A stretch of 29,904 nucleotides of DNA from Gemmatimonadota bacterium. GTDB taxonomy: Bacteria; JBHIER01; G020348925. The position numbers and the translations under genes were made by a program. The stretch lies in contig CP070758.1 in NCBI GenBank assembly GCA_020348925.1, positions 1,200,262 to 1,230,165 on the forward strand. The letters are read 5' to 3'. This document shows, piece by piece, positions 11,027-27,046 of the stretch. Numbering within the stretch: position 1 is the stretch's first letter; each line of letters begins with the position of its first letter. The notes beneath the pieces were generated by a model. The model made no database searches. It was given only the letters and a program-made list of their open reading frames with translations, and was not told the origin of the DNA.

Positions 11027-11037
11027 TTACTTCGTGC
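11015..11037 (-). terminator. Hairpin overlapping the end of the long minus-strand gene run
   Basis: GCACGAA (11015-11021) and TTCGTGC (11031-11037) form a perfect 7-bp stem with a 9-base loop spanning the stop codon of the last gene. No T-tract follows on the minus strand, so it may stabilise the RNA end rather than terminate transcription. Confidence 0.3.
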
Positions 11038-11725
11038 TCCATTTCCATTGTAGCAAAAATGTTATCGTCTTCGTGATGGAAACCTGATTAGTTTTTACTC
11101 CACTCATGAACTCCCTTATGTCGTCAACAGTATCTATATCATTCAATTCAGGTAGGAGATAGACTTCATGACATCTCTTTTCCAAAATTTGCAGAGTCTC
11201 CTTAAAAACAGTACGGGAACCCCAGGGCATATCTTCAAAGACATCAGTTACAAAAGTATTATCGCGAAAGCCAATTAAATAGTAACCACCGTCTTTGGAT
11301 GGTCCAATGACACAATCCTTGTGGTATAGGGCATCAAGCCCAGCTCGTATGATGTCCTCCGTCATGTCCGGACAATCCGTACCTGTGAGGACGACGCGCG
11401 TCATCCCTGATTGAAACGCATCTGTGAAAGCCCGGGCCATGCGCTGGCCAAGATCACCGTTCCCCTGGGAACAGTAGGACACATCTTTTCCCAGCCATTG
11501 CTCTATGAGCTCGGCGTTTCCTCCCTCATAACGTACTTCAACATGAAGAGGGTGATCTTTTTTCGCTGCGAGAACACATGCAAGCGTGTCCTCCGTCATG
11601 TACCGCTGCAGCTCGGCAGCACCTTCTTCTCCGAGAGCAGGGATGAGGCGGGTTTTCGTCTTCCCGGGCTCCGGATACCGTGTCAAGACAATAATACGCT
11701 CTCCGAGATCGTATTCTCTGGGCAT
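11027..11725 (-). CDS. TIGR04282-type transferase of arsenosugar (rSAM/selenodomain) systems
   Basis: A 232-residue cytoplasmic protein with a nucleotide-diphospho-sugar transferase (GT-A) fold. Characteristic segments are LTRYPEPGKTKTRLIP, GDLGQRMARAF, GTDCPDMT (metal/nucleotide site), and GPSKDGGYYLIGF followed by PWGSRTVF. This is the TIGR04282 family (DUF2064), repeatedly found beside TIGR04283 and the radical SAM enzyme ArsS; its exact donor and acceptor are not established. The frame opens at a TTG at 11752, but the ATG at 11725 lies 2 bases after the stop of the upstream oxidoreductase gene, suggesting translational coupling, and is preferred. It is the last gene of the run that starts with arsS. 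Confidence 0.85.
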   Translation of the reverse strand: MPREYDLGERIIVLTRYPEPGKTKTRLIPALGEEGAAELQRYMTEDTLACVLAAKKDHPLHVEVRYEGGNAELIEQWLGKDVSYCSQGNGDLGQRMARAFTDAFQSGMTRVVLTGTDCPDMTEDIIRAGLDALYHKDCVIGPSKDGGYYLIGFRDNTFVTDVFEDMPWGSRTVFKETLQILEKRCHEVYLLPELNDIDTVDDIREFMSGVKTNQVSITKTITFLLQWKWSTK

Positions 11726-11727
11726 CT

Positions 11728-13248
11728 CTATTTTCTTGTCAAGTCGAACCAACGCGAGAATAAACTTTTCACAAAAGGCGTCAGTCTCGTGCGGTTGTAC
11801 TCATCCCCCACCTGCTTGATCGCCTCCGCTTGCGTCGGATACGGATGGATAATATTCGCAATGGTCTTCAGGCCAACATCGCCGACAATGGCCACACTGA
11901 TTTCACCAATCATCTCCCCGGCATGTCGGGCCACAATGGTCGCCCCGAGGATCTTATCAGTTCCCTTCTTGACGTGAACTTTGACAAAACCCTCCTCTTC
12001 CCCGTCGGTAATGGCCCGGTCCAAATCGCTGAAGGTTTTCTGAAAAGTTTCAATCTCGACACCCTTCTGATGAGCATCCCTCTCGTACATACCGACGTGG
12101 GCTATCTCCGGGTCCGTATAGGTACACCACGGCATGGTCAGAGCGCTGAGCTTTCGGTGTCCGGGAAACATGGCGTTGGCAATGACCAGCCGGGCGGCGG
12201 CATCCGCGGTGTGGGTGAATTTGTATTTCATGCAACAGTCACCGGCGGCGTAGATGCGGTGATTCGTGGTCTGCAGATGGTCGTTCACTTCAATGCCCTT
12301 TTTTGCATCAAATTTGACCCCCGCTTTTTCAAGATCCATGCCCTCGACGTTGGGCGCCCGGCCAGCACCGATCAGGATCTCATCCACAGGGATAGTCTCT
12401 TCCTTCCCTTTGCAATCAAAGGTAATGACTTTTTCACCATCCTTCTCTTCGACACGCTTCAGTTTCACATTGAGGACGAGGCGAATACCCTCGCGGATGA
12501 AGGCGTTCTGCAAAATGTCGGCCGCATCACTGTCCTCTCTGGGCAGTAGATGCGGATTGCGGTCCATAATGGTGACCTGCGAGCCGAAGCGTTGAAAGGC
12601 CTGGGCCAGCTCACAACCCAGGGGGCCTCCGCCGATGACGGCCAGTCGGGACGGCCTCTCGGTCAGATTAAAGATTGTCTCGTTCGTAAAGTACCCAGCT
12701 TCCTTTAATCCATCGACCTGAGGGTGAACGGCCCGCGCCCCTGTTGCCAGAACCGCTTTTTTGAATTTGAGTATCTTCCCATCCACGTCGATGGTATCAG
12801 TGGAAGCAAAGACCGCATCTCCGAGAAAGACATCAATGCCAGAATCCTTGAAATGGTCGACCGCATCATGGTGGCTGATCTTTGCCCGCAGACGTCGCAT
12901 CCGCTCCATGACTGCGGAAAAATCCACCTCGACTCCATCAGGGACGCGTATTCCGAATGCCCCCGAACCCCGGACGTCCGCCCAGGCCCGGGAAGAGCGG
13001 ATAACGCACTTCGAGGGAACACAACCGTAATTCAAACAGTCGCCGCCGAAGAGATGACGCTCAACAAGGGCGACTTTGGCCCCCAAGCCTGCTGCGCCGG
13101 AAGCGGCCGTGAGTCCTGCCGAACCAGCGCCGATGACCACAAGGTTATACATGTGAGCGGGTTCGGGATTCACCCAGTCCGCTGGGAAGACATTGGAGAC
13201 GAGCTCCTCATTGTAGACATCCATTGGAGAAACTTTTAGGAGATTCAT
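11728..13248 (-). CDS. MerA-like FAD-dependent pyridine nucleotide-disulfide oxidoreductase
   Basis: A 506-residue flavoprotein. It has the FAD-binding GAGSAGL, the redox-active disulfide motif GGDCLNYGCVPSK (Cys71 and Cys76), the NAD(P)H-binding GGGPLGCELAQAFQRFG, the second FAD motif YAAGDC and a C-terminal HPYPTQAEA with the catalytic His. It resembles proteins often labelled mercuric reductase. It lacks the C-terminal vicinal Cys pair used by true MerA to bind Hg(II), ending instead in WFDLTRK, so the substrate is unknown. Members of this group with a PADWVNPEPA leader commonly sit next to, or are fused with, TVP38-type membrane proteins, as here. The ATG at 13248 is chosen over the one at 13266 because GGAGGT precedes it; it also overlaps the stop of a small upstream ORF as ATGA. 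Its stop is 2 bases before the next start. Confidence 0.9.
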   Translation of the reverse strand: MNLLKVSPMDVYNEELVSNVFPADWVNPEPAHMYNLVVIGAGSAGLTAASGAAGLGAKVALVERHLFGGDCLNYGCVPSKCVIRSSRAWADVRGSGAFGIRVPDGVEVDFSAVMERMRRLRAKISHHDAVDHFKDSGIDVFLGDAVFASTDTIDVDGKILKFKKAVLATGARAVHPQVDGLKEAGYFTNETIFNLTERPSRLAVIGGGPLGCELAQAFQRFGSQVTIMDRNPHLLPREDSDAADILQNAFIREGIRLVLNVKLKRVEEKDGEKVITFDCKGKEETIPVDEILIGAGRAPNVEGMDLEKAGVKFDAKKGIEVNDHLQTTNHRIYAAGDCCMKYKFTHTADAAARLVIANAMFPGHRKLSALTMPWCTYTDPEIAHVGMYERDAHQKGVEIETFQKTFSDLDRAITDGEEEGFVKVHVKKGTDKILGATIVARHAGEMIGEISVAIVGDVGLKTIANIIHPYPTQAEAIKQVGDEYNRTRLTPFVKSLFSRWFDLTRK

Positions 13249-13409
13249 CTCACACGTAACCTCCATTTTAAACTCATACGATGGCTATTCCATTTGTTCA
13301 TTGAGTGACCAGTCATATTTTGGGTATTTGATCTCATACTCTCCCCCTGAGAATATATCTTCTGTTTTACTTTCTCATTTTTAGAATCCGTCTTACTCTC
13401 ATTTTTCAT
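13245..13409 (-). CDS. Candidate 54-codon basic small protein between TVP38 and the oxidoreductase
   Basis: Too short for routine calling, but its position is striking. Its ATG (13409-13407) overlaps the stop region of the TVP38 gene, and its TGA (13247-13245) overlaps the ATG of the oxidoreductase gene as ATGA. The product would be hydrophilic and strongly basic, rich in Lys, Arg, Asn and Ser (start MKNESKTDSKNEKVK, end KWRLRVR), with no recognised domain or membrane segment. The Shine-Dalgarno is weak (GTGAGAG directly before the ATG). It may be a real small protein, a translational coupling ORF that carries ribosomes across the gap, or chance. Confidence 0.35.
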   Translation of the reverse strand: MKNESKTDSKNEKVKQKIYSQGESMRSNTQNMTGHSMNKWNSHRMSLKWRLRVR

Positions 13410-14439
13410 CTCTCACTTGTCGGAACGGCCAGACCATGGGCACGAGAAACATAACAAGAAGCGCACACATACCGGAGATGAGGAAGCTCAGCCACAGGGG
13501 GAAATCCGCAGTCAACATGTTATGAAGCAGACGCTCAACACCGATAAAGAATCCCATGAGAACGATGACGGCTAAAAACCAGGCCTGAAAACGTATTCGC
13601 GCCCCGCATCCGGGACATACAAATCGGCCCCATTTGTCCCACCCTACCAGTATAGCAATCGGGCTTATCTTTTGAGAACAGCCAGGACACTCTCCTCTCC
13701 TCCGTTCCTTTGACAGAAGTTCTCCCGAAGGTTCAGGAACGGTCTCACGCTTCCCCTTTGCTCCAACTCCCCTGGCGATGGCTTTATAGATTGCAGGAGC
13801 AAACATCAGAAGAATAAAAATCCCCAGGGCCAAAAAAAACTGTACAGATAGAATGTTGTCCAGAGAGCTTCCGAGCATGGCGTTTATGAATCCTCCGGGC
13901 GCCATACCGATGAGTGATCCGAATGCATAGTCACGAAACTTCATCTTGGACAGACCGAAACCGTAATTGATGGCATCATACTGGAACAGAGGTACAAGTC
14001 TGAGAAAAAGAATCATGCGAAAGCCGTGCTTCTCCGTCCCCTCGTCAAAGGATTTTATCCGTCCCTTGTGCAGCCAACCGAAGCTCTCGATGAATCTCCG
14101 TCCCAGATATCGTGCGAGTAAAAAAGAAATGCACGCCCCGAGGGTGGCCCCAATGAGAATATAGACCGTCCCCCACCACTTGCCGTACGCCAGTCCGCCA
14201 GCGAGAGACATGGCCCCGACAGGGATCACGACGACGATTGCCCGGAGAGAATATATACCGATAAAGACTACAGGACCCCACACGCCAAACCGAATCAGGA
14301 AGTTCCGTAAGTTTTCCGGAGCGAAATCTGAAATGCTCAGACCCGTGTATCGAAATACCAGAACGATTGCGATGATAAAGACGAGCAGCCCACCCAGCTT
14401 CAATAGGCTTGACTTTCCTATCCTTCGGGTCCTACTCAT
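13399..14439 (-). CDS. TVP38/SNARE-associated (DedA-like) membrane protein fused to a CxxC-x20-CxxC zinc-ribbon/TM module
   Basis: A 346-residue integral membrane protein. Residues about 15-220 form the TVP38/TMEM64 (SNARE-associated, VTT) domain: a first membrane helix, the re-entrant GGLAYGKWWG segment, GATLGACISFLLARYLG, and the conserved FLRLVPLFQYDAINYGFGL motif. After a charged linker comes a second module: Cys251-PG-Cys254, exactly 20 residues, then Cys275-PG-Cys278, followed by two hydrophobic helices (about 286-302 and 314-334). This matches the pattern called cxxc_20_cxxc in small membrane proteins. TVP38 proteins are thought to act in lipid or ion transport; the Cys module may bind zinc or another metal, possibly arsenic in this setting (speculative). 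GGGAGG lies just before the ATG. It sits between the TIGR04283 transferase and the oxidoreductase. Confidence 0.88.
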   Translation of the reverse strand: MSRTRRIGKSSLLKLGGLLVFIIAIVLVFRYTGLSISDFAPENLRNFLIRFGVWGPVVFIGIYSLRAIVVVIPVGAMSLAGGLAYGKWWGTVYILIGATLGACISFLLARYLGRRFIESFGWLHKGRIKSFDEGTEKHGFRMILFLRLVPLFQYDAINYGFGLSKMKFRDYAFGSLIGMAPGGFINAMLGSSLDNILSVQFFLALGIFILLMFAPAIYKAIARGVGAKGKRETVPEPSGELLSKERRRGECPGCSQKISPIAILVGWDKWGRFVCPGCGARIRFQAWFLAVIVLMGFFIGVERLLHNMLTADFPLWLSFLISGMCALLVMFLVPMVWPFRQVRDEK

Positions 14440-14476
14440 AGTGCCTCCCTCTTGGATCCTTCAAATCCAGAATATC

Positions 14477-15181
14477 TTAAATTCCCAGTGCGCTCTCTCT
14501 GTCTTCGTGAAAACGATAGAACCGTGCCAATCGATGCGGTGAGATCCCCAGAGCCCATCCGCTTTGAAGCATCCAGCTTCGTACGGAATTTTTCACATAC
14601 CCTTCCTCGACCCACCTTCTGGCCGACGTCTGAATTTTGTGAGGTAGAATCACGATATCGCCGAACCGCTTGAGCCGGCGGCTGAAATCCATATCCTCCA
14701 TGAGAGGAATCTCTGTGTATCCACCCATCTCATTAAAAACCGGCCGCCGCACGAAAACTCCCATGTCACCATACAGAAGTCCAAGCACCCTGTTCTTATA
14801 ATTCGAAAGCGTCTCGGCTATTCTGTAATGAAATCCAATTTGATGTAAACAGTATTGAAAACCTCCTCCGACAATTTTCTGATTCCTCAAGACCCCTCTT
14901 ATCGCTTTCAGGGAATCATGATGGGGACGGCAATCCGCATGGAGGAACCACAGTACATCCCCCGACGAAGCGTACGCCCCTGCATTCATCTGCGAACCTC
15001 GTCCTCTCGTTGCTTGAACGACTTGAGCCAAGGGCCTCGCTTTCCTTACAGTATCATCGGAACTTTCGCCGTCAGCGACGATGCGTTCAATCTTCGGATC
15101 CAGCTCCTGCAGGTATCTCAAGAGCGCCGTGATCGTGTCGGATTCATTTAGTGTGGGGATGATGATCGAAATGGAGATCAT
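14477..15181 (-). CDS. TIGR04283-type GT2 glycosyltransferase of arsenosugar (rSAM/selenodomain) systems
   Basis: A 234-residue GT2-family glycosyltransferase without membrane helices. The N-terminus SIIIPTLNESDTI is the nucleotide-binding strand. VADGESSDDTV, the family-specific RGRGSQMNAGA, GDVLWFLHAD (the metal-binding region) and MEDMDFSRRLKRFG (the ED acceptor-site motif) follow. This is the TIGR04283 family, the second transferase usually found with ArsS and TIGR04282. It is thought to act in assembling arsenosugar-type products, but its reaction is not proven. It starts 21 bases after pgl with no obvious Shine-Dalgarno, so it may depend on coupling. The next gene follows after 37 bases. 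Confidence 0.88.
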   Translation of the reverse strand: MISISIIIPTLNESDTITALLRYLQELDPKIERIVADGESSDDTVRKARPLAQVVQATRGRGSQMNAGAYASSGDVLWFLHADCRPHHDSLKAIRGVLRNQKIVGGGFQYCLHQIGFHYRIAETLSNYKNRVLGLLYGDMGVFVRRPVFNEMGGYTEIPLMEDMDFSRRLKRFGDIVILPHKIQTSARRWVEEGYVKNSVRSWMLQSGWALGISPHRLARFYRFHEDRESALGI

Positions 15182-15202
15182 GCAAATATTATTAGGGTTT
15201 TC

Positions 15203-15994
15203 TCACAAACGCCTTTTTTTCGTGCGCTCTCTTCCTGAAGATCCCGCCACGTCCCCATCCAACCACCATACGGCCCCTCTCTTGGGGCGGACCATCGCTG
15301 CCGGATACCGTTTCCTCGACGTTTTCGAATCATTCAGGATTGCCTGGACCGTTTCTCGTTTATGGGCTCCTGTGACAATAAAAAATACACTGCTCGCGTT
15401 ATTGAGAACCGGCAGGGTCATCGTAATACGCCAGCGCGGGGTAATTTCAGGAGGAGCGTAAACAGAGGTAACCAATCGCTCCTTTTCATCAAGAGCCGAA
15501 TTGTCAGGAAAAAGTGAGGCCGTATGACCATCCTGCCCGATGCCAAGCAATACGAGGTCGAATCGTGGAAGGAGCTCGCCGGTACGGATTTCCTTTCGTC
15601 TGAAGCGGGGATAGAAAAATGAAAGCAGCCTGCGCTCGTAATCATCGGCGGCCTTGGCGGGTTCGATCTCACCGCGGATGCGATGGATATTATCCTTCGG
15701 AAGGGGTACATGATCGAGAAGCGTTTCCCGGGCCATGCGATAGTTGCTGTCAGAATGATCGGGCGGAACACAGCGTTCATCGCCCCAGAAGACGTGAACG
15801 AACTGCCAGCCTATCTTCTTCACGAATTCTTCCGAAGCGAGAAGCGAATAGATCTTTCGAGGCGTCGAGCCGCCGGCAAGGGATAGAGCACATCGTCCAT
15901 GGGTGGCAATCGCCTTCACTGCCAGCTTCAAGAACTGCTCCGCTACCGCGTGGGCAAGACTATCGAGATCAGGAAATATTTTAACGTTTTTCAT
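15203..15994 (-). CDS. pgl: 6-phosphogluconolactonase
   Basis: A 263-residue cytoplasmic enzyme hydrolysing 6-phosphoglucono-lactone to 6-phosphogluconate, the second step of the oxidative pentose phosphate pathway. Diagnostic motifs of the SOL/DevB-type enzyme are present: SLAGGSTPRKIY, VFWGDERCVPPDHSDSNY and LLGIGQDGHTASLFP, with the catalytic His of the last motif. The frame opens further upstream (16030), but the ATG at 15994 overlaps the zwf stop as ATGA and starts the conserved protein, so it is chosen. The coupling puts its product directly after glucose-6-phosphate dehydrogenase, its pathway predecessor. Confidence 0.95.
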   Translation of the reverse strand: MKNVKIFPDLDSLAHAVAEQFLKLAVKAIATHGRCALSLAGGSTPRKIYSLLASEEFVKKIGWQFVHVFWGDERCVPPDHSDSNYRMARETLLDHVPLPKDNIHRIRGEIEPAKAADDYERRLLSFFYPRFRRKEIRTGELLPRFDLVLLGIGQDGHTASLFPDNSALDEKERLVTSVYAPPEITPRWRITMTLPVLNNASSVFFIVTGAHKRETVQAILNDSKTSRKRYPAAMVRPKRGAVWWLDGDVAGSSGRERTKKRRL

Positions 15995-17490
15995 ACGTCG
16001 ATCCCATGCTCCCCGTGGACGGACAACCACTTTCGGCCAGTTTTATTAAGGAGGTCTTCGGCCTCAGGGGGGCCCCAACTCCCGGGCTCGTAAATTGCCA
16101 GAGGGGGTGATTTCGAACTTTCCCAAACCTGGACAATCGGGTCTATGAGTTGCCAAGCCAGTTCGATACCGTCGCTGCGCGTGAAGAGAGATGCATCGCC
16201 CTTTATTGCATCCAGGAGCAATCGTTCATAGGCATCCGGAAGAGCATCAGCGCCAAAGGCATCCGCGTAATGAAACTCCATATCAACGGAGCGCGTCTCG
16301 GCCAGCGTATTCGGTGTTTTCACCTCGAAGCAGAGGTGCATGCCCTCATCGGGTTGAATGGACAGGGCCAGAACGTTCGGAGTTATCTCCCGGCCCGGCG
16401 GCAGCGGGAACATGAAGTGCGGCGGACGCTGGAATTGAACGATAATCTCCGACGTCTTGTTGGTCAGCATCTTGCCTGAGCGGAGGTAGAACGGGACACC
16501 CTGCCAGCGCCAGTTGTCAATGAACAATTCAAGGGCCCCGTATGTGGCGGTTTGGGAATGGGGCTCAATCTCCTCGGTCTCGCGGTAACCTCTGTACTGC
16601 CCCCGAACAGTACACTCTAAAACATCTCCAGACGAGATGTGACGGATCGCGGAGAACATTTTCACCTTCTCATTGCGAATGGCGTCGGCGTTGAAGGAAG
16701 CCGGCGATTCCATGGCCGTCAGGGCCATGAGCTGCAGTAAATGGTTTTGAAACATGTCCCGCAGCACACCCACCTTGTCGTAATAACCGGCCCGATGGCC
16801 GACACCCACCGTTTCGGCCACAGTGATCTGAATATTGTCAATATATTTTCTGTTCCAAACAGGCTCAAAGATGGTATTGGCGAACCGGAAGAAGAGGATG
16901 TTTTGAGCGGTCTCCTTACCAAGATAATGATCGATTCGAAAGACCTGATGTTCCTCGAACACGGCATGAACCTGTCCGTTCAATTGACGGGCACTCTCAA
17001 AGTCATTTCCGAAGGGCTTCTCAATGATGATACGAGTCCATCCGGTTCCGCTTTTGTTCAGCTCGGCTTTTCCCAGTTGTTCTATAATTATTGGATACAG
17101 CACAGGCGGAGTTGCCAGGCAGAAGAGTCGATTTCCTCGTGTGCCCGCCTCTTCATCAAGCTGCCGCAATCGCTCTGCAAGGCGGCGATACGTTTCGGGA
17201 TCGTCGTAACTGCCGGCCACATAGGTATGTCTCTCCGCCGACCGAGGCCAGAGCTCGCATGTTCCCGGTCGTCTTCGAGCATAAGCCTTCACGCCCTCGA
17301 AAAGATTATGTCGAAAATCCTGGTCGGACAGATCCGTTCGCGCAACACCCACGATCCTGCTTTGCATGGGCAGCAATCCGTCACAGGCCAACGTATGAAG
17401 CGCCGGCACAAGCTTCCGCTGCGTCAGATCACCCGATGCGCCGAAGATAATAATAACCGCGGGTTCAGTGGTTAAATGTGTCTGAGACAT
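15991..17490 (-). CDS. zwf: Glucose-6-phosphate 1-dehydrogenase
   Basis: A 499-residue enzyme of normal family length that oxidises glucose 6-phosphate to 6-phosphoglucono-1,5-lactone, making NADPH (cofactor not proven here). It shows the dinucleotide-binding FGASGDLTQRKLVPAL, IIIEKPFGND, the catalytic RIDHYLGKE and, further on, FYLRSGKML. The open frame extends to a TTG at 17514. The ATG at 17490 has GGAG 8 bases upstream and is preferred. A 96-base gap, the largest in the pentose-phosphate part of the run, separates it from gnd and contains a three-unit 14-bp tandem repeat. It overlaps pgl by 4 bases. Confidence 0.97.
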   Translation of the reverse strand: MSQTHLTTEPAVIIIFGASGDLTQRKLVPALHTLACDGLLPMQSRIVGVARTDLSDQDFRHNLFEGVKAYARRRPGTCELWPRSAERHTYVAGSYDDPETYRRLAERLRQLDEEAGTRGNRLFCLATPPVLYPIIIEQLGKAELNKSGTGWTRIIIEKPFGNDFESARQLNGQVHAVFEEHQVFRIDHYLGKETAQNILFFRFANTIFEPVWNRKYIDNIQITVAETVGVGHRAGYYDKVGVLRDMFQNHLLQLMALTAMESPASFNADAIRNEKVKMFSAIRHISSGDVLECTVRGQYRGYRETEEIEPHSQTATYGALELFIDNWRWQGVPFYLRSGKMLTNKTSEIIVQFQRPPHFMFPLPPGREITPNVLALSIQPDEGMHLCFEVKTPNTLAETRSVDMEFHYADAFGADALPDAYERLLLDAIKGDASLFTRSDGIELAWQLIDPIVQVWESSKSPPLAIYEPGSWGPPEAEDLLNKTGRKWLSVHGEHGIDV

Positions 17491-17529
17491 TTCTATTGCT
17501 CCGCATCTATTCAATAAACGAGAGTTACG

Positions 17530-17571
17530 TTTTTCGTAGTGCGTGTTTCGTACCCCATGTTTCGTGGCATG
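17530..17571. repeat. Three degenerate 14-bp tandem repeats in the gnd-zwf gap
   Basis: Three 14-base units (17530-17543, 17544-17557, 17558-17571) each begin with T(T/G)TTTCGT and then vary. On the coding strand they read as ACGAAA-containing repeats just upstream of zwf. Role unknown; they may be remnants of a dispersed intergenic repeat. Confidence 0.55.
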
Positions 17572-17586
17572 TCATGTGTCCCAGCA

Positions 17587-18501
17587 TCACTCCTGCCTTC
17601 TCACCGTATGCCCGCCGAACTGGTTGCGCAGTGCAGCCAACAGTTTCGCGGCGTAGCTTTCATCCTGCCGGCTGACGAAACGCATCATCAGCGCCAGAGT
17701 GATTACTGGTGCCGGCACATCCTCATCTATCGCCTCTGCTATTGTCCACCGGCCTTCGCCGGAATCGTCGACCCAGTCTCTGATCTCGGTCAGGTTTTGA
17801 TCCTGGGCCAATGCCTCTGCCGTTAAGTCCAGGAGCCAGGATCTCACGACGCTCCCATAACGCCAAATCTCAGCCACCTGGTGCAGGTCCAGATCGAAAT
17901 CTTTTTTTGCTCTCAAGATCTCAAAGCCTTCGGCAAAGGCCTGCATAAGACCATACTCGATACCGTTGTGCACCATTTTCACAAAATGGCCGGCGCCGTT
18001 CGAGCCCACATGTCCCCAGCCTTTATCCGAACCGGGGGCAAAAGTTTCAAAAACAGACCGTAATCGACCCACCACCACCTTTTCACCCCCCACCATCATA
18101 CTGTATCCCTCCGTGAGACCCCATATGCCGCCACTGGTGCCCACATCGACAAAATGGATCTCCTGCGCTCGAACCAGTTCCGCCCGACGCATTGTGTCCT
18201 TATAATAGGAGTTTCCTCCCTCAATGATGGTATCGCCAGGAGATAGAATCTCCAGCAGGGCTTCAATCGTGCTCTCCGTCGCCTCACCAGCCGGTACCAT
18301 AATCCAGATCGTTCGTGGAGCTGCGAGTTTTTCAATCATCTCGTTCAACGTTGTGGCAGCTTCAATGTTCGATTCCTCTTCCGCCAGGATTTCGGCCTTT
18401 TCAGCTGTTCGATTGTGAGCGACAATCCTGTGACCGTTCCTCGCCAATCTCCGGGCGATATTGGCGCCCATTCTGCCCAAACCTACGATTCCGAGTTCCA
18501 T
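17587..18501 (-). CDS. gnd: 6-phosphogluconate dehydrogenase, decarboxylating (short form)
   Basis: A 304-residue enzyme oxidising 6-phosphogluconate to ribulose 5-phosphate and CO2. It is the short form (about 300 residues) rather than the 470-residue E. coli type. Motifs: N-terminal GIVGLGRMGANIARRL, HNRTAEK (Arg after the Asn suggests NADP+ preference, an inference), VGTSGGIWGLTEGY, and the catalytic region HFVKMVHNGIEYGLMQ with Lys, His and Asn. An ATG at 18516 overlaps the rpe stop as ATGA, but the ATG at 18501 has AGGAG at good spacing and gives the usual N-terminus, so it is chosen. It follows rpe with at most an 11-base gap. Confidence 0.95.
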   Translation of the reverse strand: MELGIVGLGRMGANIARRLARNGHRIVAHNRTAEKAEILAEEESNIEAATTLNEMIEKLAAPRTIWIMVPAGEATESTIEALLEILSPGDTIIEGGNSYYKDTMRRAELVRAQEIHFVDVGTSGGIWGLTEGYSMMVGGEKVVVGRLRSVFETFAPGSDKGWGHVGSNGAGHFVKMVHNGIEYGLMQAFAEGFEILRAKKDFDLDLHQVAEIWRYGSVVRSWLLDLTAEALAQDQNLTEIRDWVDDSGEGRWTIAEAIDEDVPAPVITLALMMRFVSRQDESYAAKLLAALRNQFGGHTVRRQE

Positions 18502-18512
18502 TCTTTCTCTCC

Positions 18513-19172
18513 TCATTGCTCCGCACTGTTCCGGAGCGCAGCGATGTTGTCAGCAACGGACGCTTCCTCGTTGTAAATGCTCGAACCTGCCACCAGGACC
18601 GTCGCTCCGACCTCCACAACCTGTGGTGCGGTTGTGACACCGATCCCGCCGTCGACCGCAATAGGGATATTCAGCTTCCGCTTTTTCAACTGATCATGGA
18701 GTTGCCTGATCTTTCCCAATTGGCTTTCGAGGAACTTCTGTCCCCCCCAACCAGGATTTACCGTCATTATCTGAATGAAATCGGTCATAGCCAGAACTTC
18801 TTCCAGCACCTCCACAGGCGTGCCTGGATTGATTGAGACGCCCGCTTCAATATTGTGCTCGCGAATCGACTGCAATACCCGATGGAGGTGGGGACATGCT
18901 TCTTGATGCACAATGAGACGACCGGCACCAGCGTCTACAAATGCACTTACATGGCGCTCAGGTTCAACGATCATGAGGTGTACATCCAACGGTATCTCTA
19001 CATTCGAGCGAACCGCCCGCACCACGCCTGCACCAAAAGTGATATTGGGTACAAAACGGCCATCCATGACATCTATTTGGATTGCATCAGCCCCGGCCGC
19101 TTCAGCTTGCCGTGCCTGTTCGCCGAGCCGTCCAAAATCCGCTGAAAGAATTGAAGCTTCAATCTGGATCAT
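18513..19172 (-). CDS. rpe: Ribulose-phosphate 3-epimerase
   Basis: A 219-residue TIM-barrel enzyme interconverting ribulose 5-phosphate and xylulose 5-phosphate. Conserved segments are SILSADFGRLGEQ, the metal/catalytic IDVMDGRFVPNITFG, LDVHLMI, MTVNPGWGGQKF and IAVDGGI, followed by a phosphate-binding VLVAGSSIY. Normal family length. Its ATG lies inside the end of rpiA (14-base overlap), with AGGAG 7 bases upstream. Confidence 0.97.
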   Translation of the reverse strand: MIQIEASILSADFGRLGEQARQAEAAGADAIQIDVMDGRFVPNITFGAGVVRAVRSNVEIPLDVHLMIVEPERHVSAFVDAGAGRLIVHQEACPHLHRVLQSIREHNIEAGVSINPGTPVEVLEEVLAMTDFIQIMTVNPGWGGQKFLESQLGKIRQLHDQLKKRKLNIPIAVDGGIGVTTAPQVVEVGATVLVAGSSIYNEEASVADNIAALRNSAEQ

Positions 19173-19872
19173 TATATTCTCCTCTTCTAAGATGGCGAAT
19201 TCCGCTACGTCCTGCTACAATGACATCCCTCGCCAGGCCCAGAAACAGCCCATGCTCCACAACGCCTGCGCGCTCACTGAGACTCGCTGCCAACCGGGCC
19301 GGTCGATCGATCGGCCCGAATGTGCAATCAAGGATCAGGTTCCCCTGTTCCGTCTTGAACGGTGTCCCATCATTTTCCTGACGCAAGGCTGGCTTGCCGC
19401 CCATCGATTTGAGAAATGACAACTGAGTCTCCCAGCCAAAGGGGATGACTTCAAGGGGAACCGGCCTGTGGGTTCCAAGGACCGGTGAAAGTTTGCTCTC
19501 ATCCACCACAATGATCTCACGCAAACTGGCCTGGGCGACAATCTTCTCTCGCACAAGCGCACCCCCTCCGCCCTTGATCAGATTCAGATGGGGATCGACT
19601 TCGTCCGCACCATCGATCGTAACGTCAAGGGCAGGGTGTTCCTCCAGTGTTGTCAATGGAATTCCAAGTCGCTGCGCCTCGGTTTCAACCTGGCGAGAGC
19701 ACGGCAGGCCAAGGATATTCCGTAATTGGCCCTCTTTTAACAATTGTGCTATATGTCGGACAGCGAAGGTGGCCGTACTCCCGTGGCCCAGTCCCACAAT
19801 CATCCCCGATTTTATGAATCCAACTGCATGCTCGGCAGCTTGGCGCTTGAATTCTGAAGTATCTTCGTTCAA
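19159..19872 (-). CDS. rpiA: Ribose-5-phosphate isomerase A
   Basis: A 237-residue RpiA-type enzyme interconverting ribose 5-phosphate and ribulose 5-phosphate. Motifs: GLGHGSTATFAV (the substrate loop, with His where Thr or Ser is more usual), TIDGADEVD and IKGGGGALVREKIVA with the catalytic Glu/Lys region. The start is a TTG at 19872; there is no upstream ATG, and GGAGGT precedes it by about 10 bases, lying across the pgi stop codon. The gap to pgi is 8 bases. The TTG may keep its translation low relative to its neighbours. Confidence 0.95.
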   Translation of the reverse strand: MNEDTSEFKRQAAEHAVGFIKSGMIVGLGHGSTATFAVRHIAQLLKEGQLRNILGLPCSRQVETEAQRLGIPLTTLEEHPALDVTIDGADEVDPHLNLIKGGGGALVREKIVAQASLREIIVVDESKLSPVLGTHRPVPLEVIPFGWETQLSFLKSMGGKPALRQENDGTPFKTEQGNLILDCTFGPIDRPARLAASLSERAGVVEHGLFLGLARDVIVAGRSGIRHLRRGEYNDPD

Positions 19873-19880
19873 CCGACTTG

Positions 19881-21659
19881 CTACCTCCGCAATATCACAT
19901 TATTAGCGCATTCACCGAGGGCACCGGTCAACTGTTTCAGCCTGCCTTCTACGTCGTGATCCAGGTGAAAGGTTATGACGCGCCGCCCTCTGTCCAAGAG
20001 GGCCTGACGGTCCCCCAGAGCTTGAGCCGCTTTGAGCAGACCGAAGGTCATTGACGATTCAGGTGATCCGGCTTTATCGGGGATGGGTACATCGCACTGA
20101 TCGTCAGCCGTAAACTGGATGAAGAGACCGTGTCCTCCGTCTCCCTTGTGAAGCTGGCCGGTCGAGTGTAAAAAACGTGGACCAAAGCCAACCGTTGTGG
20201 CCAACTTGTATTTGTCGCGAAGCGCGCGGCGGAATTCCCGAAGCGCCCCATCTGTACCGACAGTAGGCGGGACATACGCTTGCAACGCTACATAGTCCCC
20301 GGGTCTCGACTGACTGAGAAACGTGTTCAGTGCTTCTGTTGTAAGTGGCGCAGACTCACAGGGAGGCCATGCGCCCTTCTTACTGTATTCAGCAACCGTG
20401 TCCCTGGCCAGCACCTTCGAGGCCTCAACATCCGGCTGATCGAAGGGATTGATACCCATAAGCGAACCGGCCACAGCCGTGGCCATCTCCCACAGGAAGA
20501 ACTGTCCGCCAAGATCGTAGAGATCATCTAAGTGAATCCGAATGGCGGGATGCCCGCCATCTTCAAGAGCTTTCATCGCCGCATCGTTCGTGTTATCACT
20601 ACTCAGTTTCATTGAAACAAAAAGCCGATCACCTCCGTATACCTCCGGAGGACCCAGGGGTTCGTGCACGACCGGAAGGATACCGGTCCTCTCTTTTCCC
20701 GTACTCTCAGCAATGAGTTGTTCCACCCAGTCACCGAAGCCACCGATCTCCTGTGAGATGGCAAAGGTAACTTTATCGCGCCCTGCTTTTGCCAATTCTC
20801 CCATGACGGTACCGAGCTGCAATCCGCAGTTGTCGCTCTCAAGAGAGGAATCACTGTTCTTGGAGTTACCTGCCATGCTCAGAGCTCGACGGAGCAGGGT
20901 CTCTACATCCATTCCAATGAGTGCCGCTGGCACGAGCCCGAAATAGGAGAGGGCCGAATAGCGTCCTCCAATATTTGGATCGTTCAAAAAAGTCCTGCGG
21001 AAATCATACTCAGCGGCCAGTTCCTCAAGATGCGAGCCGGGATCGGTGATGGCCACAAAGCATTCACCCGCCTCAGCCGGACCGACAACTTCGGCCACCA
21101 AGTTGTAAAAATACTTAAAAAAGGAGAGGGTCTCAACGGTTCCGCCGGATTTCGTCGAGACGATGAATAATGTTCTGGTGAGATCCAACCGCTCAGCATG
21201 GGCTTTCACGGCTCCGGGGTCCGTACTATCCAATACGGCAAAATCCAGTTGACGCGGCGAACGGCCGTTCGTCTCTCCACCACCGAATGTCTTGCTGAAA
21301 ACCTCCGGGGCCAGGCTGGAGCCCCCCATTCCCAAGAGTAAGGTGTGGGTATACCCCGCAGTCCGCACTTCTTCCACAAAAGCTTCCAGGTGGGGGAGAT
21401 TCTCGAGCATCATCTCCGCCGTGGTGAGCCAGCCGAGCCTATTCGTAATGTCAGTCGATTCAGGTTTCCACACCGTGTGGTCGTGAGTCCAGATCCGGGT
21501 CATCGTCCGATTCTTCCTCATCTCTGCCAAGGCCGAATCAACCGATTTCTGATATGAGCCAAGACTCTTCGAGAGGCGTTTCCGGTCCGGCTGAAATATT
21601 TCCTGTTTCCCGTCAATTATCATTCGAATTTTCCTTCTCCGGCTCTTCATGCGCTCCAT
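19881..21659 (-). CDS. pgi: Glucose-6-phosphate isomerase domain protein (Pgi part of the Tal-Pgi type)
   Basis: A 592-residue SIS-fold isomerase interconverting glucose 6-phosphate and fructose 6-phosphate. It shows LLLGMGGSSLAPEV (108-120), LDSTDPGAV, VSTKSGGTVETLSF (167-180), GGRYSALSYFGLVPA and GINPFDQPDVEASK. The sequence resembles the Pgi half of bifunctional transaldolase/glucose-6-phosphate isomerases more than stand-alone E. coli-type Pgi, but the transaldolase half is absent. The first ATG overlaps the arsS stop as TAATG, so the two genes are translationally coupled; another ATG follows three codons later. It begins the pentose-phosphate part of the operon. Confidence 0.9.
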   Translation of the reverse strand: MERMKSRRRKIRMIIDGKQEIFQPDRKRLSKSLGSYQKSVDSALAEMRKNRTMTRIWTHDHTVWKPESTDITNRLGWLTTAEMMLENLPHLEAFVEEVRTAGYTHTLLLGMGGSSLAPEVFSKTFGGGETNGRSPRQLDFAVLDSTDPGAVKAHAERLDLTRTLFIVSTKSGGTVETLSFFKYFYNLVAEVVGPAEAGECFVAITDPGSHLEELAAEYDFRRTFLNDPNIGGRYSALSYFGLVPAALIGMDVETLLRRALSMAGNSKNSDSSLESDNCGLQLGTVMGELAKAGRDKVTFAISQEIGGFGDWVEQLIAESTGKERTGILPVVHEPLGPPEVYGGDRLFVSMKLSSDNTNDAAMKALEDGGHPAIRIHLDDLYDLGGQFFLWEMATAVAGSLMGINPFDQPDVEASKVLARDTVAEYSKKGAWPPCESAPLTTEALNTFLSQSRPGDYVALQAYVPPTVGTDGALREFRRALRDKYKLATTVGFGPRFLHSTGQLHKGDGGHGLFIQFTADDQCDVPIPDKAGSPESSMTFGLLKAAQALGDRQALLDRGRRVITFHLDHDVEGRLKQLTGALGECANNVILRR

Positions 21660-22615
21660 TAGTTAACAAGTGCACCACCGCACGAGGAGCCGCAACCGGC
21701 CGTACAGCCGAAGCAGTGAATGCCAGTGACAATCCTTCGTGGTAACAATTCTGGGAGTCTGAAATTCTCGATACGGTCTGGCGCGCCATGGTCCACTGAA
21801 AGTCCCAAGGCCAGATTAAAATCGCAATCGTACAGCGTCCCGTCCCAGCCGACGCTGATCTGATGCCGACACATCAAGCCCTCGAGGGTCTGGGGATTGT
21901 ACGATTCCTTGAGCAGCTGCAGATATTCCTCATCCTGCCCCTGCTTCCGCAGGTAGATTTGGAATCGACCGATGGGCATATTCGTGATGGTCAAGAGCCT
22001 GGAAAAGATGATGCCGTAGCGCCCCTTCAGTTCACGACGGTAATCGGCCTCAAGCCCTACCTGACTGGGTGGAAGAAAAGGGCCGCCGGGATTATAGACG
22101 AGATTCAAAGGCAAATGCTCCTCGGAACCGTAACCCAAGGTGTTCAGACGTCGAATGGCATCGACACTCCTTTCGTACACACCCTCCCCCCGCTGTGCCC
22201 TGACGTTCTCCTCAAGATAACAGGGCATCGAGGCCACAAGTTGGACCCCATTGTCTTTAAAAAACTCAGGTGTAGCCTCCATGCCCTCCTCGAGAAGCAC
22301 GGTCAAATTGGTTCGCACTTGAACAGGGAGATCTTTTGCGCGCAAGATTTCGACGAACCGACGGAAATCAGGATGAAGCTCCGGCGATCCACCTGTCAGA
22401 TCGACGAGTTGACATTCGACCCTCTTCACCACATCGAGGATCAATTCCATGGTACTCCATTCCATCATTTCCCCTCGACGCGGAGAGCAGCTCAAATGGC
22501 AATGTGCACATTCTTGATTGCACATCAAACCGAGATTGACCTGAAGAATATCGATGTCGTCGGCATACAGTCCACCGCTGCTGATATCAGCGATTTTCGT
22601 CTCGAACTCGTTCAT
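21659..22615 (-). CDS. arsS: Arsenosugar biosynthesis radical SAM protein ArsS
   Basis: A 318-residue radical SAM enzyme. The [4Fe-4S] motif is Cys32-x3-Cys36-x2-Cys39 (LMCNQECAHC), followed by HLSCSPRRGEMM, LVDLTGGSPELHP (the GGxP-type SAM site) and the family's NLVYNPGGPFLPPSQ. The C-terminus is Cys-rich: Cys301, 304, 308 and 312 in HCFGCTAGCGSSCGGA. In the ArsS family the enzyme joins the 5'-deoxyadenosyl group of SAM to dimethylarsenite on the way to arsenosugars. Some members are selenoproteins; here no in-frame UGA occurs and all these positions are Cys. AAGGAG lies about 11 bases before the ATG. It is first in the run, behind its own promoter, and overlaps pgi. No arsM is in the window. 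Confidence 0.93.
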   Translation of the reverse strand: MNEFETKIADISSGGLYADDIDILQVNLGLMCNQECAHCHLSCSPRRGEMMEWSTMELILDVVKRVECQLVDLTGGSPELHPDFRRFVEILRAKDLPVQVRTNLTVLLEEGMEATPEFFKDNGVQLVASMPCYLEENVRAQRGEGVYERSVDAIRRLNTLGYGSEEHLPLNLVYNPGGPFLPPSQVGLEADYRRELKGRYGIIFSRLLTITNMPIGRFQIYLRKQGQDEEYLQLLKESYNPQTLEGLMCRHQISVGWDGTLYDCDFNLALGLSVDHGAPDRIENFRLPELLPRRIVTGIHCFGCTAGCGSSCGGALVN

Positions 22616-22679: not shown

Positions 22680-22708
22680 TATATATATTGAAATATTTCC
22701 TCTGTCAA
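22680..22708 (-). promoter_or_regulatory. arsS: Promoter of the arsS-pentose phosphate run
   Basis: On the minus strand, TTGACA (22708-22703), a 17-base spacer and TATATA (22685-22680). The spacer contains a perfect 10-bp palindrome, GAAATATTTC (22690-22699), and another palindrome, TGTGCACA (22665-22672), lies around the expected transcription start. Either could be a repressor site. The predicted 5' UTR is about 60 bases. Confidence 0.65.
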
Positions 22709-22860: not shown

Positions 22861-23142
22861 TTACATTTCACCGGAACCCATGTCACCAGCCGCTTGACTC
22901 AAGGCCTGTTTCATGCGCTCACGAATTTCCGAACTCAGAGGAGTCGCAAAAAACGATTCCACGCTTTCCACGCGATCCTGGAACTGGCGCAGGGCATCTC
23001 TCATAAATCGAACCTGTTTCTCAAATTGAGGACAGGCCTTGCAGAACAGATAGTGCGTTCTTACAGCCAACCGTTTCCTTAATGGAAGTTTACGATCCAG
23101 AGATTCAGATATTAATTGTGCGACCTGTTCGCAAGTGAGCAT
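22861..23142 (-). CDS. Soluble zinc-binding anti-sigma factor (ZAS type)
   Basis: A 93-residue protein with the zinc-binding anti-sigma signature His30-x3-Cys34-x2-Cys37 (HYLFCKAC) and an N-terminal CEQVAQLISESLDR helix. No membrane segment follows, so it is a cytoplasmic anti-sigma factor of the kind that can release its sigma factor on thiol oxidation or metal binding. The ATG at 23142 overlaps the sigma gene's stop as TGATG, with AAGGAA upstream; a TTG one codon earlier is less likely. Pairing with the adjacent ECF sigma factor is strongly implied. Arsenite reacts with such Cys sites, which is interesting given arsS next door, but sensing of arsenic is inference. Confidence 0.85.
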   Translation of the reverse strand: MLTCEQVAQLISESLDRKLPLRKRLAVRTHYLFCKACPQFEKQVRFMRDALRQFQDRVESVESFFATPLSSEIRERMKQALSQAAGDMGSGEM

Positions 23143-23726
23143 CAATGATTCCTTTCATTTTTTTTGCCAAACCAGTTCATCTCCAGGCAACGACGCAACC
23201 GCATGCGAGCGCGATAAAGCATAACCCATAAGTTAGTCGTAGAAACACCCAAGACTTTACACACTTCTTTGCTGTCCAGCCCATCCATCTCTCGAAGCGA
23301 AAAGGCATCGCTCAGACGGGAGGGGAGATCGGATAAACACTTTTCGATAACATCTTGAAACTCCTTTTGCTCCAATATCTTACTTGGATCAGGAGCCCAT
23401 TCTGAGGGCATCACTCTCCATTTCCCCCTTTCGTCGAACAGATCCTTCATCGTATCCTCCGGGGTGCCGGGGCTCTCGACGGAACGTTCCCTACTCGCTC
23501 TTCGAATATGGTCGACAATCTTGTGCTTGAGAATACCGAAGAGCCAGGTCTTCTCCGAAGATCGGCCCGAGAAACTCTTCCGGGCACGAAGAGCCGCCAG
23601 AAAGGTCTCCTGAACAATATCCTCGGCAAGCCGGGAATCCCTGAGCCGGAGCAGTGCATACCGGAAGAGGTCGTCCCCGTATCGGTCCACCCACTGCTCC
23701 GGCTTTGACAGTCGAACGTCGTTCAT
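23142..23726 (-). CDS. ECF-family RNA polymerase sigma factor
   Basis: A 194-residue sigma-70 family protein with region 2 (about 15-80: DLFRYALLRLRDSRLAEDIVQ, then TFLAALRA and TWLFGILKHKIVDHIRR, given here in parts) and region 4 (about 125-180: LSDLPSRLSDAFSLREMDG, VCKVLGVSTTNLWVMLYRAR). No region 1 or 3, as expected for the extracytoplasmic-function class; it resembles the TIGR02943 group. GAGG lies 5 bases before the ATG. It is cotranscribed with the overlapping zinc anti-sigma gene. Its upstream region contains a 9-bp inverted repeat (23780-23814), a possible autoregulatory site. It lies between the glk-tkt and arsS units, so it may control one or both. Confidence 0.9.
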   Translation of the reverse strand: MNDVRLSKPEQWVDRYGDDLFRYALLRLRDSRLAEDIVQETFLAALRARKSFSGRSSEKTWLFGILKHKIVDHIRRASRERSVESPGTPEDTMKDLFDERGKWRVMPSEWAPDPSKILEQKEFQDVIEKCLSDLPSRLSDAFSLREMDGLDSKEVCKVLGVSTTNLWVMLYRARMRLRRCLEMNWFGKKNERNH

Positions 23727-23900: not shown

Positions 23901-25952
23901 CTACCCTTTTCCCATCACTTTTTTGGCGATTAGGACAACACTCTCCTTCGTAATCCCAAACTTTTCGTACAAAACCTTATACGGAGCACTTGCTCCGAAA
24001 CCGTCCATTCCAATGACCGCCCCTTCAAGTCCCACGTAATGCTCCCAACCCAGTTTTATGCCCGCTTCCACGGCCACACGAGCTTTCACCTGTGATGGCA
24101 GTACACTTTCGCGATACTCTACCGGCTGATCATCAAAGAGTTCCCAGCTGGGTATGGAGACAATTCTCACCCTCATCCCTTCTTTACCCAGTATCTTACC
24201 TGCCTCCAGAGCAATATGTACCTCAGAGCCCGTGCCCACCAAGATCAGTTCCGGTGTCCCACTATTCGAATCCCACATCACATAACCGCCACGGTGCAGA
24301 CTTTCAGCAGAAGGGTATGTGCTCCGATCGAGGACGGGCAGGTTCTGCCGGGTCAAGATGAGGGCGGTGGGGCCGCTCGTATTGAGCAGGGCCGCCCGCC
24401 AGGCCTCAACAGCCTCGTTGGCGTCGGCAGGGCGGATGACGGTCAGGTTGGGCACGGCGCGTAAGTTCATGACGTGCTCGACGGGCTGGTGCGTGGGTCC
24501 GTCCTCCCCCAAAGCGATGCTGTCGTGGGTGAAGACGTAAATGGCTCGGATGCCCATCAGCGCTGCCAGACGCATGGGCGGACGCATATAATCCGAGAAG
24601 GTGAGAAACGTACCCGTGAAGGGGATCGCGCCACCGTGCAGGGCCATACCGTTGGCAATGGTTCCCATGGCGTGTTCTCGCACACCGAAGTGGAGGTTCC
24701 GTCCACCGTAGCCCCATTCGTCTCCGACGGCACCCTGTGTGTCCTCAACAGAGAGGTCGGGCGATTGAAAATCGCCGCAGCCCTTGAGCCAGGTGAAACA
24801 GGACGGATTGAGATCGGCCGAGCCTCCGATCAATTCGGGAACCTTAGAGGCCAAGGCCTGCAGGACGGTCTCGGAGGCTTTGCGGGTTGCCGGTCCCGCC
24901 TCCTCGGGGGAAAAGGACGGTAAATCTTTTTCCCAACCTTGGGGCAATTCTCCCGATTGCATTCTCCGAAACTCCGCCGCCAGGTCAGGATGCGCCGCTT
25001 CGTACCGAGCAAAAGTCTCCTGCCACTCGGACTCCCATTCCTGACCTCGCGAAAGGGCTTGATGGAAGCGCTCTCGCGCTTCCTCCGGAATGTGAAATAC
25101 AGTTTCCTTGGGCCAGTCGAGGTTCTCCTTCGTCGCCTGAAGCTCTTCATCGCCCAAGGGCGAGCCATGGGATTTGAACGAACCCTGCATGTGAGGTGCA
25201 CCGTATGCGATCTGGCTCCGCACCGCAATGATGGAGGGGCGGGACGTATCGGTGTGTGCCTTCTTCAGCGCGCTTTCGATAGCTTCCAGATCATTACCGT
25301 CATCCACCCGCTGAACATGCCAGCCGTAAGCCTCAAAGCGCATTCCCACATTCTCGGTAAAGGTAAGACCCGTCGAGCCGGCCAGGGAGACGCGGTTATC
25401 GTCGTACAGCACGATTAGCTTGCCCAGGCGCAAATGCCCGGCAATGGAACAGGTCTCAGAGGCGACGCCTTCCATGATGTCCCCGTCACTGGCCATAACG
25501 TAGGTGCGATGATCGACGATCGTATAACCGGGACGATTGAACCCGGCGGCAAGATGGGCTTCAGCGATAGCCATGCCTACGGCGTGACTCAATCCCTGGC
25601 CCAGGGGACCGGTCGTCACCTCAACGCCCGGCGCGTGACCGTACTCCGGATGGCCCGGTGTTTTGCTGCCCCATTGGCGGAAATTCTTCACCTCCTCCAT
25701 GGAGAGATCATATCCCGTCAGGTGCAGTAGTGCATACAGCAACATCGAGGCATGCCCGGCCGAGAGGACGAAGCGATCCCTGTCAGGCCACTGCGGATTG
25801 TTGGGATTATGCTTCAGAAACCGGTCCCATAGGATGTACGCCGCGGGCGCCGCTCCTAACGGCATGCCCGGATGGCCGGAATTGGCTTTCTGTATGGCAT
25901 CTGCGGCTAAAAAACGGATGGTGTCGATGCACAGTTCGTCCAATGATCTCAT
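23901..25952 (-). CDS. tkt: Transketolase
   Basis: A 683-residue thiamine-diphosphate enzyme moving two-carbon units between pentose, triose and hexose phosphates in the non-oxidative pentose phosphate pathway. Conserved parts: [12 protein letters not shown] (25-36), [14 protein letters not shown] (115-128), the ThDP/Mg motif SDGDIMEG (155-162) closing with DDN (184-186), and the pyrimidine-domain [12 protein letters not shown]. Full family length. Its ATG overlaps the glk stop as ATGA, so the two are cotranscribed. It is separated from the sigma gene by 174 bases with a weak terminator. Confidence 0.97.
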
Positions 25953-26932
25953 GGTGTTCCCTCCATCACTTTGTTTCTGGCGTGGGTCGCCGCTCCGATG
26001 GCCACGGCGTTACTCACAAAGGACGCCTTGACGATTCGCAAATCCTCGAGGGCCGCCCTCAAAGCCCTTTCTCTCACACCCCTTTCTACAAGTTGAATCA
26101 ATTCCGGAATACCGTCAATGATGCCACCTCCCAATACGAGCAGGCACGGATTGATCGCATTCACCAGACCCACCACACCGGCGGCGAGATAGTGTCCCGC
26201 CTCCTCAATTATACGAATCGCTAAGGGGTCTCGCTCATGATACGCCTCGCCAACGACTTTGGCCGTGATCTCTTCAATGGAACCGGCTTTGCTTAATATT
26301 GTCTGACCCTGTTTCTCGTCCTGCTGCACCGCCTCTTGAGCCCGCTCGGCAATGGCCCAACCCCCGGCGTAGGCCTCCATGCAGCCGATATTGGGCCCCC
26401 GGCACGGTCGACCGTCGACCGCAACGGTCATGTGCCCGATCTCCCCGGCCGTGTTGCTGCATCCCTCCAGTAAACGCCCGCCACTGACGATCCCACCGCC
26501 AACACCCGTCCCGACGAAAACACAGATGAGATCGTCAATTCCCTTTCCCGCGCCGTGGTACCACTCCGCCACCGTCGCGGCCCGGACGTCGTTTAAGACG
26601 AACACCGGCATATTCAAAGCTCGCTCAAGTTGAGCGCCCAGGGGGACCTCCTGCCAGCGCAGGTTCGGAGCAAAGCGGACCGCCCCTGTGGCTCTCTCGA
26701 CCTGCCCGGCCACACCGACGCCCACCGCCCTGGTTTCTTGGGGCACGTTCTTGAGGCACGTTTCGACACACGAAACGACATCCTCAACAACACCCCCGGC
26801 CCCCTTCTCAGGTTTCGTCGGATATCGTTGAGATTCCACGATATTGCCGCGACTATCGACAACGGCCGTTTCCACATTTGTTCCGCCGATATCGACACCC
26901 ATCGTTAGAAATTGAGCTTCATTAGGATTCAT
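25949..26932 (-). CDS. glk: ROK-family glucokinase
   Basis: A 327-residue ROK sugar kinase, probably phosphorylating glucose to glucose 6-phosphate, the entry substrate for zwf and pgi in the neighbouring run. Motifs: ATP-binding [27 protein letters not shown] (catalytic Asp), [12 protein letters not shown], the ROK signature AGEIGHMTV and LGGGIIDG. The zinc motif reads [12 protein letters not shown], so the usual middle Cys (CxCGxxGC) is replaced. The ATG at 26932 with GGAG 8 bases upstream is chosen over an ATG at 26956. It overlaps tkt and has a consensus promoter. Fructo- or other sugar-kinase activity cannot be excluded. Confidence 0.88.
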
Positions 26933-27046
26933 ACATTTTTCTCCGGATAGTCTCATTCCTCAAACAGGAAACTGTCTTTACGAGTTCTTCTTTGACTCCT
27001 CTCAATCCGTGCCTGTGCGACACGATTGCATTTTATCCTTCGTTCA

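Follow-up and report, generated by a model that had tools for sequence, protein, structure and literature searches.

A predicted operon joins arsenosugar genes to the pentose phosphate pathway in a Gemmatimonadota bacterium, with related arrangements in other phyla

In this work we focused on a stretch of 29,904 nucleotides from a Gemmatimonadota bacterium (contig CP070758.1), hereafter the window, in which arsS, the gene of a predicted radical S-adenosylmethionine (SAM) arsenosugar enzyme, is followed by six genes of the pentose phosphate pathway and then by the other genes of the arsenosugar module. Genes of the same pathway also lie close to arsS in several other phyla, and this recurrent pairing probably reflects a real functional link and not an accident of one genome. 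Judging from sequence comparisons, we give a probability of roughly 0.55 to the interpretation that the module and the sole oxidative pentose phosphate pathway of the organism would be co-expressed because organoarsenical synthesis draws on the output of that pathway.

Apart from ArsM and ArsS, little is known about how bacteria make arsenosugars, be it the further steps, the cofactors or the role of the synthesis in cell physiology. ArsS adenosylates arsenic (PMC12159101), and its chemistry, in which ribose arrives via SAM, is also covered in PMC8552651. The ArsM-ArsS arsenosugar pathway of Synechocystis PCC 6803 (Xue 2019; Cheng 2021) is used here for comparison as it is cited in these two papers.

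Methods

All coordinates are positions within the window. Genes were identified from an open reading frame (ORF) listing and hidden Markov model scans, and copy numbers were obtained by family searches of the genome. For the comparison with other bacteria 161 arsS loci were sampled, 80 of them as the closest relatives, followed by class or phylum mates of linked genomes. Up to 20 kb of DNA around each locus was mapped by tblastn, using the window proteins and locus representatives as queries. A locus was considered linked if a pentose phosphate or glucose-6-phosphate gene was found within 3 kb of arsS, unless stated otherwise. Control queries were Escherichia coli K-12 proteins, 7 from the pentose phosphate pathway (Pgi included) and 42 from other housekeeping functions.

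Results

The arsenosugar and pentose phosphate genes form a co-directional run on the minus strand, from 22615 to 11027, in the order arsS-pgi-rpiA-rpe-gnd-zwf-pgl-TIGR04283-VTT-FAD oxidoreductase-TIGR04282 (FAD, flavin adenine dinucleotide). An earlier sequence-only reading of this DNA had claimed these eleven genes in this order, and each is backed by a full-length family match. The junctions that it described were found again when the sequence was re-read, namely TAATG between arsS and pgi, a 14-base overlap between rpiA and rpe, ATGA between zwf and pgl and 2 bases between the oxidoreductase and TIGR04282 genes; its 8-base gap between pgi and rpiA is correct provided that rpiA starts with the TTG at 19872. 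A further ATGA overlap, read directly at the rpe/gnd junction, was absent from its list. Wider gaps within the run separate gnd from zwf (72 bases), pgl from TIGR04283 (21 bases), TIGR04283 from VTT (37 bases) and VTT from the oxidoreductase gene (132 bases). A terminator scan found no convincing intrinsic terminator on the minus strand inside the run. Co-direction, tight junctions and the lack of a strong terminator make a single predicted operon from arsS to TIGR04282 plausible. Upstream of arsS the direction is unchanged, with genes for a ROK glucokinase, a transketolase, an extracytoplasmic function (ECF) sigma factor and an anti-sigma factor (26956 to 22861), which the earlier reading had missed. 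Between 26956 and 15203 all steps of the pentose phosphate pathway are encoded except transaldolase, which is absent from the operon and is represented elsewhere in the genome just by a 217-amino-acid TalC-like frame with a weak match.

The genome comprises 5.04 Mb in a single contig and is the sole member of its phylum among the genomes compared. Family searches found one copy each of zwf, pgi and, above the cut-off, arsS; a single zwf is likewise present in three other genomes (G044, G064, G090). Since zwf and pgi are single-copy, the copies in the operon are the housekeeping enzymes. This rules out dedicated paralogs for these two genes, and the "dedicated supply" proposed earlier does not hold for them. 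No arsM or ars transporter gene was recognised within the window. The search for arsM elsewhere in the genome, suggested in the same proposal, found two copies that exceed the cut-off of NF008823, at genome positions 3007072 and 2739600, 1.5-1.8 Mb from the operon.

Across the 161 loci, pathway genes were found within 10 kb of arsS in 32, within 3 kb in 28 and within 1 kb in 25; where the distance was 7.7-9.1 kb (four loci) they were lone genes. By comparison, arsM lies within 3 kb in 21 of the 161 loci. Linkage to arsM (22 loci) and to pathway genes (28 loci) is almost mutually exclusive, the two occurring together only in L202 and L206. Linked loci were found in Aminicenantes, Nitrospirota, the bin47 phylum (G055, CP070719) and Desulfobacterota/Myxococcota. 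The junction between arsS and pentose phosphate genes, whose absence from all relatives had been named as a point that would speak against the arrangement, thus recurs.

In Aminicenantes, linkage was seen in all five loci whose upstream DNA was visible. In L131 the order is rpiB-rpe-glk-tal-pgi-gnd-zwf-pgl, followed directly by arsS-VTT-FADox-TIGR04282-TIGR04283, and in L133 the ars module is embedded in a pathway operon, with glk-gnd-zwf-pgl on one side and tkt-rpiB-pgi on the other, while pgl or pgi immediately precedes arsS in L060, L065 and L132. ArsS is encoded by each of the 12 genomes examined from the bin47 phylum, suggesting that its function is a core one in this phylum, and 11 of these genomes carry rpiB, tal, pgi and/or glucokinase genes divergent from arsS, within approximately 0.65 kb; no 8-mer, as a shared operator, was common to six or more of the eleven divergent arsS/rpiB-tal-pgi regions. 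The Myxococcota/Desulfobacterota loci show tkt-rpiB-tal-gnd-zwf-pgl-glk-pgi-arsS (L040) and tkt-tal-arsS (L149). Among the Nitrospirota, gnd-zwf-pgl and/or tal are divergent from arsS in L109, L205, L210 and L214, pgl alone lies upstream of it in L202, L206 and L213, glk follows it in L201, and tal is found at 2.8 kb in L209. In 20 Nitrospirota loci the encoded ArsS is less similar; pathway clusters lie 4-6 kb away in two of these, whereas arsM takes their place in most. The pathway genes may thus lie upstream of, downstream of, around or divergent from arsS. The ars module itself (ArsS, TIGR04282, TIGR04283, VTT and the FAD oxidoreductase) is present in most near relatives. Relatives of mtn, deoD and rihC, as genes of a depurinating nucleosidase or phosphorylase, were not found beside arsS in the 161 loci.

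Chance adjacency was ruled out by the E. coli control. Within 3 kb of arsS the 7 pentose phosphate proteins matched 18 loci and the 42 other housekeeping proteins matched 2, and the gapA, pgk, eno, pfkA, fbaA, tpiA, edd and eda queries gave zero matches. A Mann-Whitney test over genes yielded p ~ 4e-10, a value that treats the genes as independent though they are clustered and is to be read as strong, not as literal. On a tree of the 161 ArsS sequences the linked state requires 14 parsimony changes, against 26 for shuffled labels, and at least 8 of the changes fall on well-supported branches. Linkage is clustered on the tree yet has been gained or lost repeatedly. Because the layouts differ and the label changes this often on supported branches, one frozen block is not sufficient, and a single horizontally moved block is unsupported; the tree is compatible with a single ancient origin followed by many losses of linkage.

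Some other features of the arsS loci were recorded. In 12 of the 161 loci arsS is directly preceded by the gene of a PiT-type transporter for phosphate or possibly arsenate; these are planctomycete-type loci including L059, L071, L078, L083, L091 and L098, and also L041. In Desulfobacterota and Nitrospirota it is common for the ArsS frame to contain a single TGA in frame, as would fit selenoprotein forms; the ArsS frame of the window has none. The arsS contig L103 is filed under Akkermansia muciniphila and is probably a misnamed metagenome bin.

The features of the window are listed in Table 1. On its score, its invariant CX3CX2C cluster motif (C32-C36-C39) and its DUF3641 C-terminal domain (PF12345, 174 bits), the arsS product is a predicted member of TIGR04167. 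The TIGR04282 and TIGR04283 proteins, which had been named as companions of ArsS, both score above their curated cut-offs. The VTT/TVP38 protein ends in a CxxC...CxxC tail, matching TIGR04104 at 30 bits, below the cut-off of 45. The FAD oxidoreductase carries the redox motif CLNYGC; a role as mercuric reductase was rejected, as the protein scores 406.5 bits with the MerA equivalog TIGR02053 (cut-off 454) and fits NF004991 instead. Its second Rossmann motif reads IMDRN, compared with QRN or QRD in pathway-linked Aminicenantes and mostly E plus a small or hydrophobic residue in the bin47 phylum; as an indication of coenzyme preference this is suggestive only, and it played no part in our conclusions. 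The zwf, pgl, gnd, rpi, rpe and tkt products all exceed curated cut-offs. By inspection zwf and gnd have NADP-type motifs, the type of gnd being deduced from its NRT motif. The pgi product corresponds to the PGI portion of fusion-type tal/pgi proteins and lacks the transaldolase half.

Table 1. Features of the arsS region, in the order of the minus strand
Feature	Coordinates	Strand	Evidence
ROK-family sugar kinase, probable glucokinase	25949..26956	-	PF00480 213 bits; ROK_glcA_fam 204 bits, below cut-off 260
tkt, transketolase (4-base overlap with kinase)	23901..25952	-	TIGR00232 897 bits, cut-off 682
ECF sigma factor	23142..23726	-	TIGR02943 198.5 bits, cut-off 162
Anti-sigma factor (zf-HC2)	22861..23145	-	NF052368 67 bits, cut-off 50
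Promoter-like TTGACA (22708-22703)-17-TATATA (22685-22680)	22680..22708	-	Read directly; 64 bases before arsS start codon
arsS, predicted radical SAM arsenosugar enzyme	21659..22615	-	TIGR04167 413.6 bits, cut-off 300
pgi	19881..21659	-	PF00342 59 bits; NF007080 641 bits vs 712, profile 372-946 only
rpiA, ribose-5-phosphate isomerase A	19159..19872	-	TIGR00021 239.8 bits, cut-off 126
rpe, ribulose-phosphate 3-epimerase	18513..19172	-	TIGR01163 250.5 bits, cut-off 212.6
gnd, short-type 6-phosphogluconate dehydrogenase	17587..18516	-	NF007161 459 bits, cut-off 271
zwf, glucose-6-phosphate dehydrogenase	15991..17514	-	TIGR00871 596.9 bits, cut-off 400.6
pgl, 6-phosphogluconolactonase	15203..16030	-	TIGR01198 217.9 bits, cut-off 124; start probably ATG at 15994
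TIGR04283 GT2-type glycosyltransferase	14477..15181	-	236 bits, cut-off 182
VTT/TVP38 membrane protein	13399..14439	-	PF09335 99.6 bits
MerA-like FAD disulfide oxidoreductase	11728..13266	-	NF004991 832 bits, cut-off 620
TIGR04282 CofC-like nucleotidyl/glycosyltransferase	11027..11752	-	216.8 bits, cut-off 134; PDB relative 3cgx, E 2e-42

The run had been said to start from a single clear promoter. A TTGACA-17-TATATA element is indeed present upstream of arsS, and as a predicted promoter it is plausible but unproven, since it is not among the sites listed by a consensus promoter scan; that scan gave 15 promoter-like sites against 10.5+/-3.3 expected, hence no clear excess. Relatives of the ECF sigma factor (49-58% identity) are encoded near arsS in L040, L041, L059, L078, L098 and L150, which belong to different phyla, and most are accompanied by their own anti-sigma factor. 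This recurring sigma factor is a possible regulator of the ars module.

Elsewhere in the window, two consecutive long ORFs lie on the plus strand (3527-6379 and 7037-9886; 950 and 949 amino acids), the second of which combines a HYDIN-type Ig match, a weak cohesin match and a dockerin match in one protein.

Discussion

The window probably contains the known arsenosugar cluster in a previously unnoticed form, joined to pentose phosphate genes. A full-text search found no published description of this link, most subscription papers lying outside that search. As in Synechocystis PCC 6803, the ArsS belongs to the same equivalog family and arsM is present in the genome, but here arsS sits in a long pentose phosphate operon and arsM lies far away. 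All five families of the cluster known from NCBIfam (TIGR04167, TIGR04282 and TIGR04283, often with VTT and a PRK06370-type FAD oxidoreductase) are found, with six pentose phosphate genes between arsS and the remaining module genes. Compared with bacterial tal/pgi-gnd-zwf-pgl clusters, the window has the same enzymes, including a PRK09533-type PGI, but lacks the tal half and has arsS, the transferases and the oxidoreductase in addition. In the gapdh-arsJ arsenic islands, GAPDH makes an arseno-ester for export. These islands likewise couple a gene of a central-carbon enzyme to arsenic genes, whereas glycolysis genes were absent near arsS in the loci sampled with E. coli proteins.

In the mechanism that we propose, the output of the pathway would supply sugar phosphates in all linked genomes, as precursors of the ribose of SAM and of an activated sugar for the TIGR04282 and TIGR04283 transferases. 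Where zwf-gnd-pgl are present, it would also supply NADPH for the reduction of As(V) to As(III) and for the FAD reductase. ArsM, encoded elsewhere, would probably provide dimethylated arsenic (DMA), which ArsS would adenosylate, and the transferases would then complete the sugar. In ArsS products the ribose is brought in with the 5'-deoxyadenosyl group of SAM and does not come directly from ribose phosphate. A simple supply of ribose phosphate, as put forward earlier, is therefore unlikely, and such a supply could act only indirectly, via nucleotide synthesis or the sugar nucleotide of TIGR04282/TIGR04283.

Several points weigh against this interpretation. Most ArsS loci are unlinked, among them the nearest ArsS relatives (L037 and L039), whose genomes gave no zwf match. 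In Desulfobacterota, leaving aside L149, which belongs to the closest relatives, about 40 further loci are without any pathway gene in the 3 kb around arsS. Many of the compared loci come from metagenome bins broken at contig ends, and the sampling leans to ArsS proteins resembling that of the window. Established chemistry is limited to ArsS, in cyanobacteria, and ArsS, TIGR04282 and TIGR04283 are annotated here by homology. Two linked genomes, G055 and G069, also gave no zwf match; their arsS neighbours are pgi, or rpiB-tal-pgi-glucokinase. The NADPH supply of the earlier proposal thus stays plausible for genomes that have zwf and gnd, but as these two genomes are linked it is not the sole reason for the linkage or its common factor. 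The genes common to linked loci are those of sugar-phosphate interconversion (pgi, tal, rpiB, glucokinase, gnd-zwf-pgl); this speaks for sugar-phosphate supply or recycling, plus reductant in some genomes, and a shared supply of sugar phosphate and reductant is our best guess for the reason of the linkage.

The main rival explanation, which we consider unlikely, is a stress regulon, in which arsS and the pentose phosphate genes would be needed together under metalloid or oxidative stress, perhaps under ECF control, with no metabolic channelling. It would account for the ECF and anti-sigma genes that precede arsS in the window, with relatives in the arsS neighbourhood of six other loci, and for the TIGR04169 peroxidase-like genes adjoining arsS in 35 loci, and it agrees with the rise in pentose phosphate flux and NADPH reported for antimonite in Agrobacterium (PMC7876068). 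However, the window and L040 are the only cases in which arsS has both the ECF pair and pentose phosphate genes nearby, the promoter-like site of arsS resembles the sigma-70 type, and linkage is kept in genomes devoid of a zwf match, so that a defence based on NADPH is not general.

It is improbable that the ars module merely settled beside a common pentose phosphate cluster without functional meaning. Clusters of zwf-gnd-pgl-tal-pgi are widespread in bacteria and linkage is absent from most ArsS lineages, which fits such a neutral origin, but the enrichment over the 42 housekeeping controls is specific to the pentose phosphate pathway as opposed to glycolysis and the Entner-Doudoroff pathway, and it extends over several phyla, orientations and independent changes, with almost the whole bin47 phylum linked. 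We find it very improbable that the ArsS homologue and the transferases make some other, arsenic-free metabolite or lipid that contains sugar and draws on pentose phosphates. The near exclusiveness of arsM and pathway linkage and the lack of a recognised arsM or ars transporter in the window fit this possibility; against it stand the score of ArsS with the TIGR04167 equivalog (413.6 against 300), the two arsM genes of the genome, and the interleaving of arsM-linked and pathway-linked ArsS in one family tree.

We thus prefer the reading that organoarsenical synthesis would draw on the pentose phosphate pathway. A wider view, which we put forward tentatively, is that in several phyla this synthesis has repeatedly been joined under one promoter with the sole pentose phosphate pathway, so that arsenosugar would be a routine, carbon-linked product and not the result of occasional detoxification, with the flux of both being set jointly. 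The link is about as frequent in our sample as that with arsM, and it points to what the arsenosugar pathway consumes. In Aminicenantes, the bin47 phylum and some Nitrospirota the product may be formed constitutively, and because the link recurs, the part played by central carbon metabolism in making organoarsenicals can be tested.

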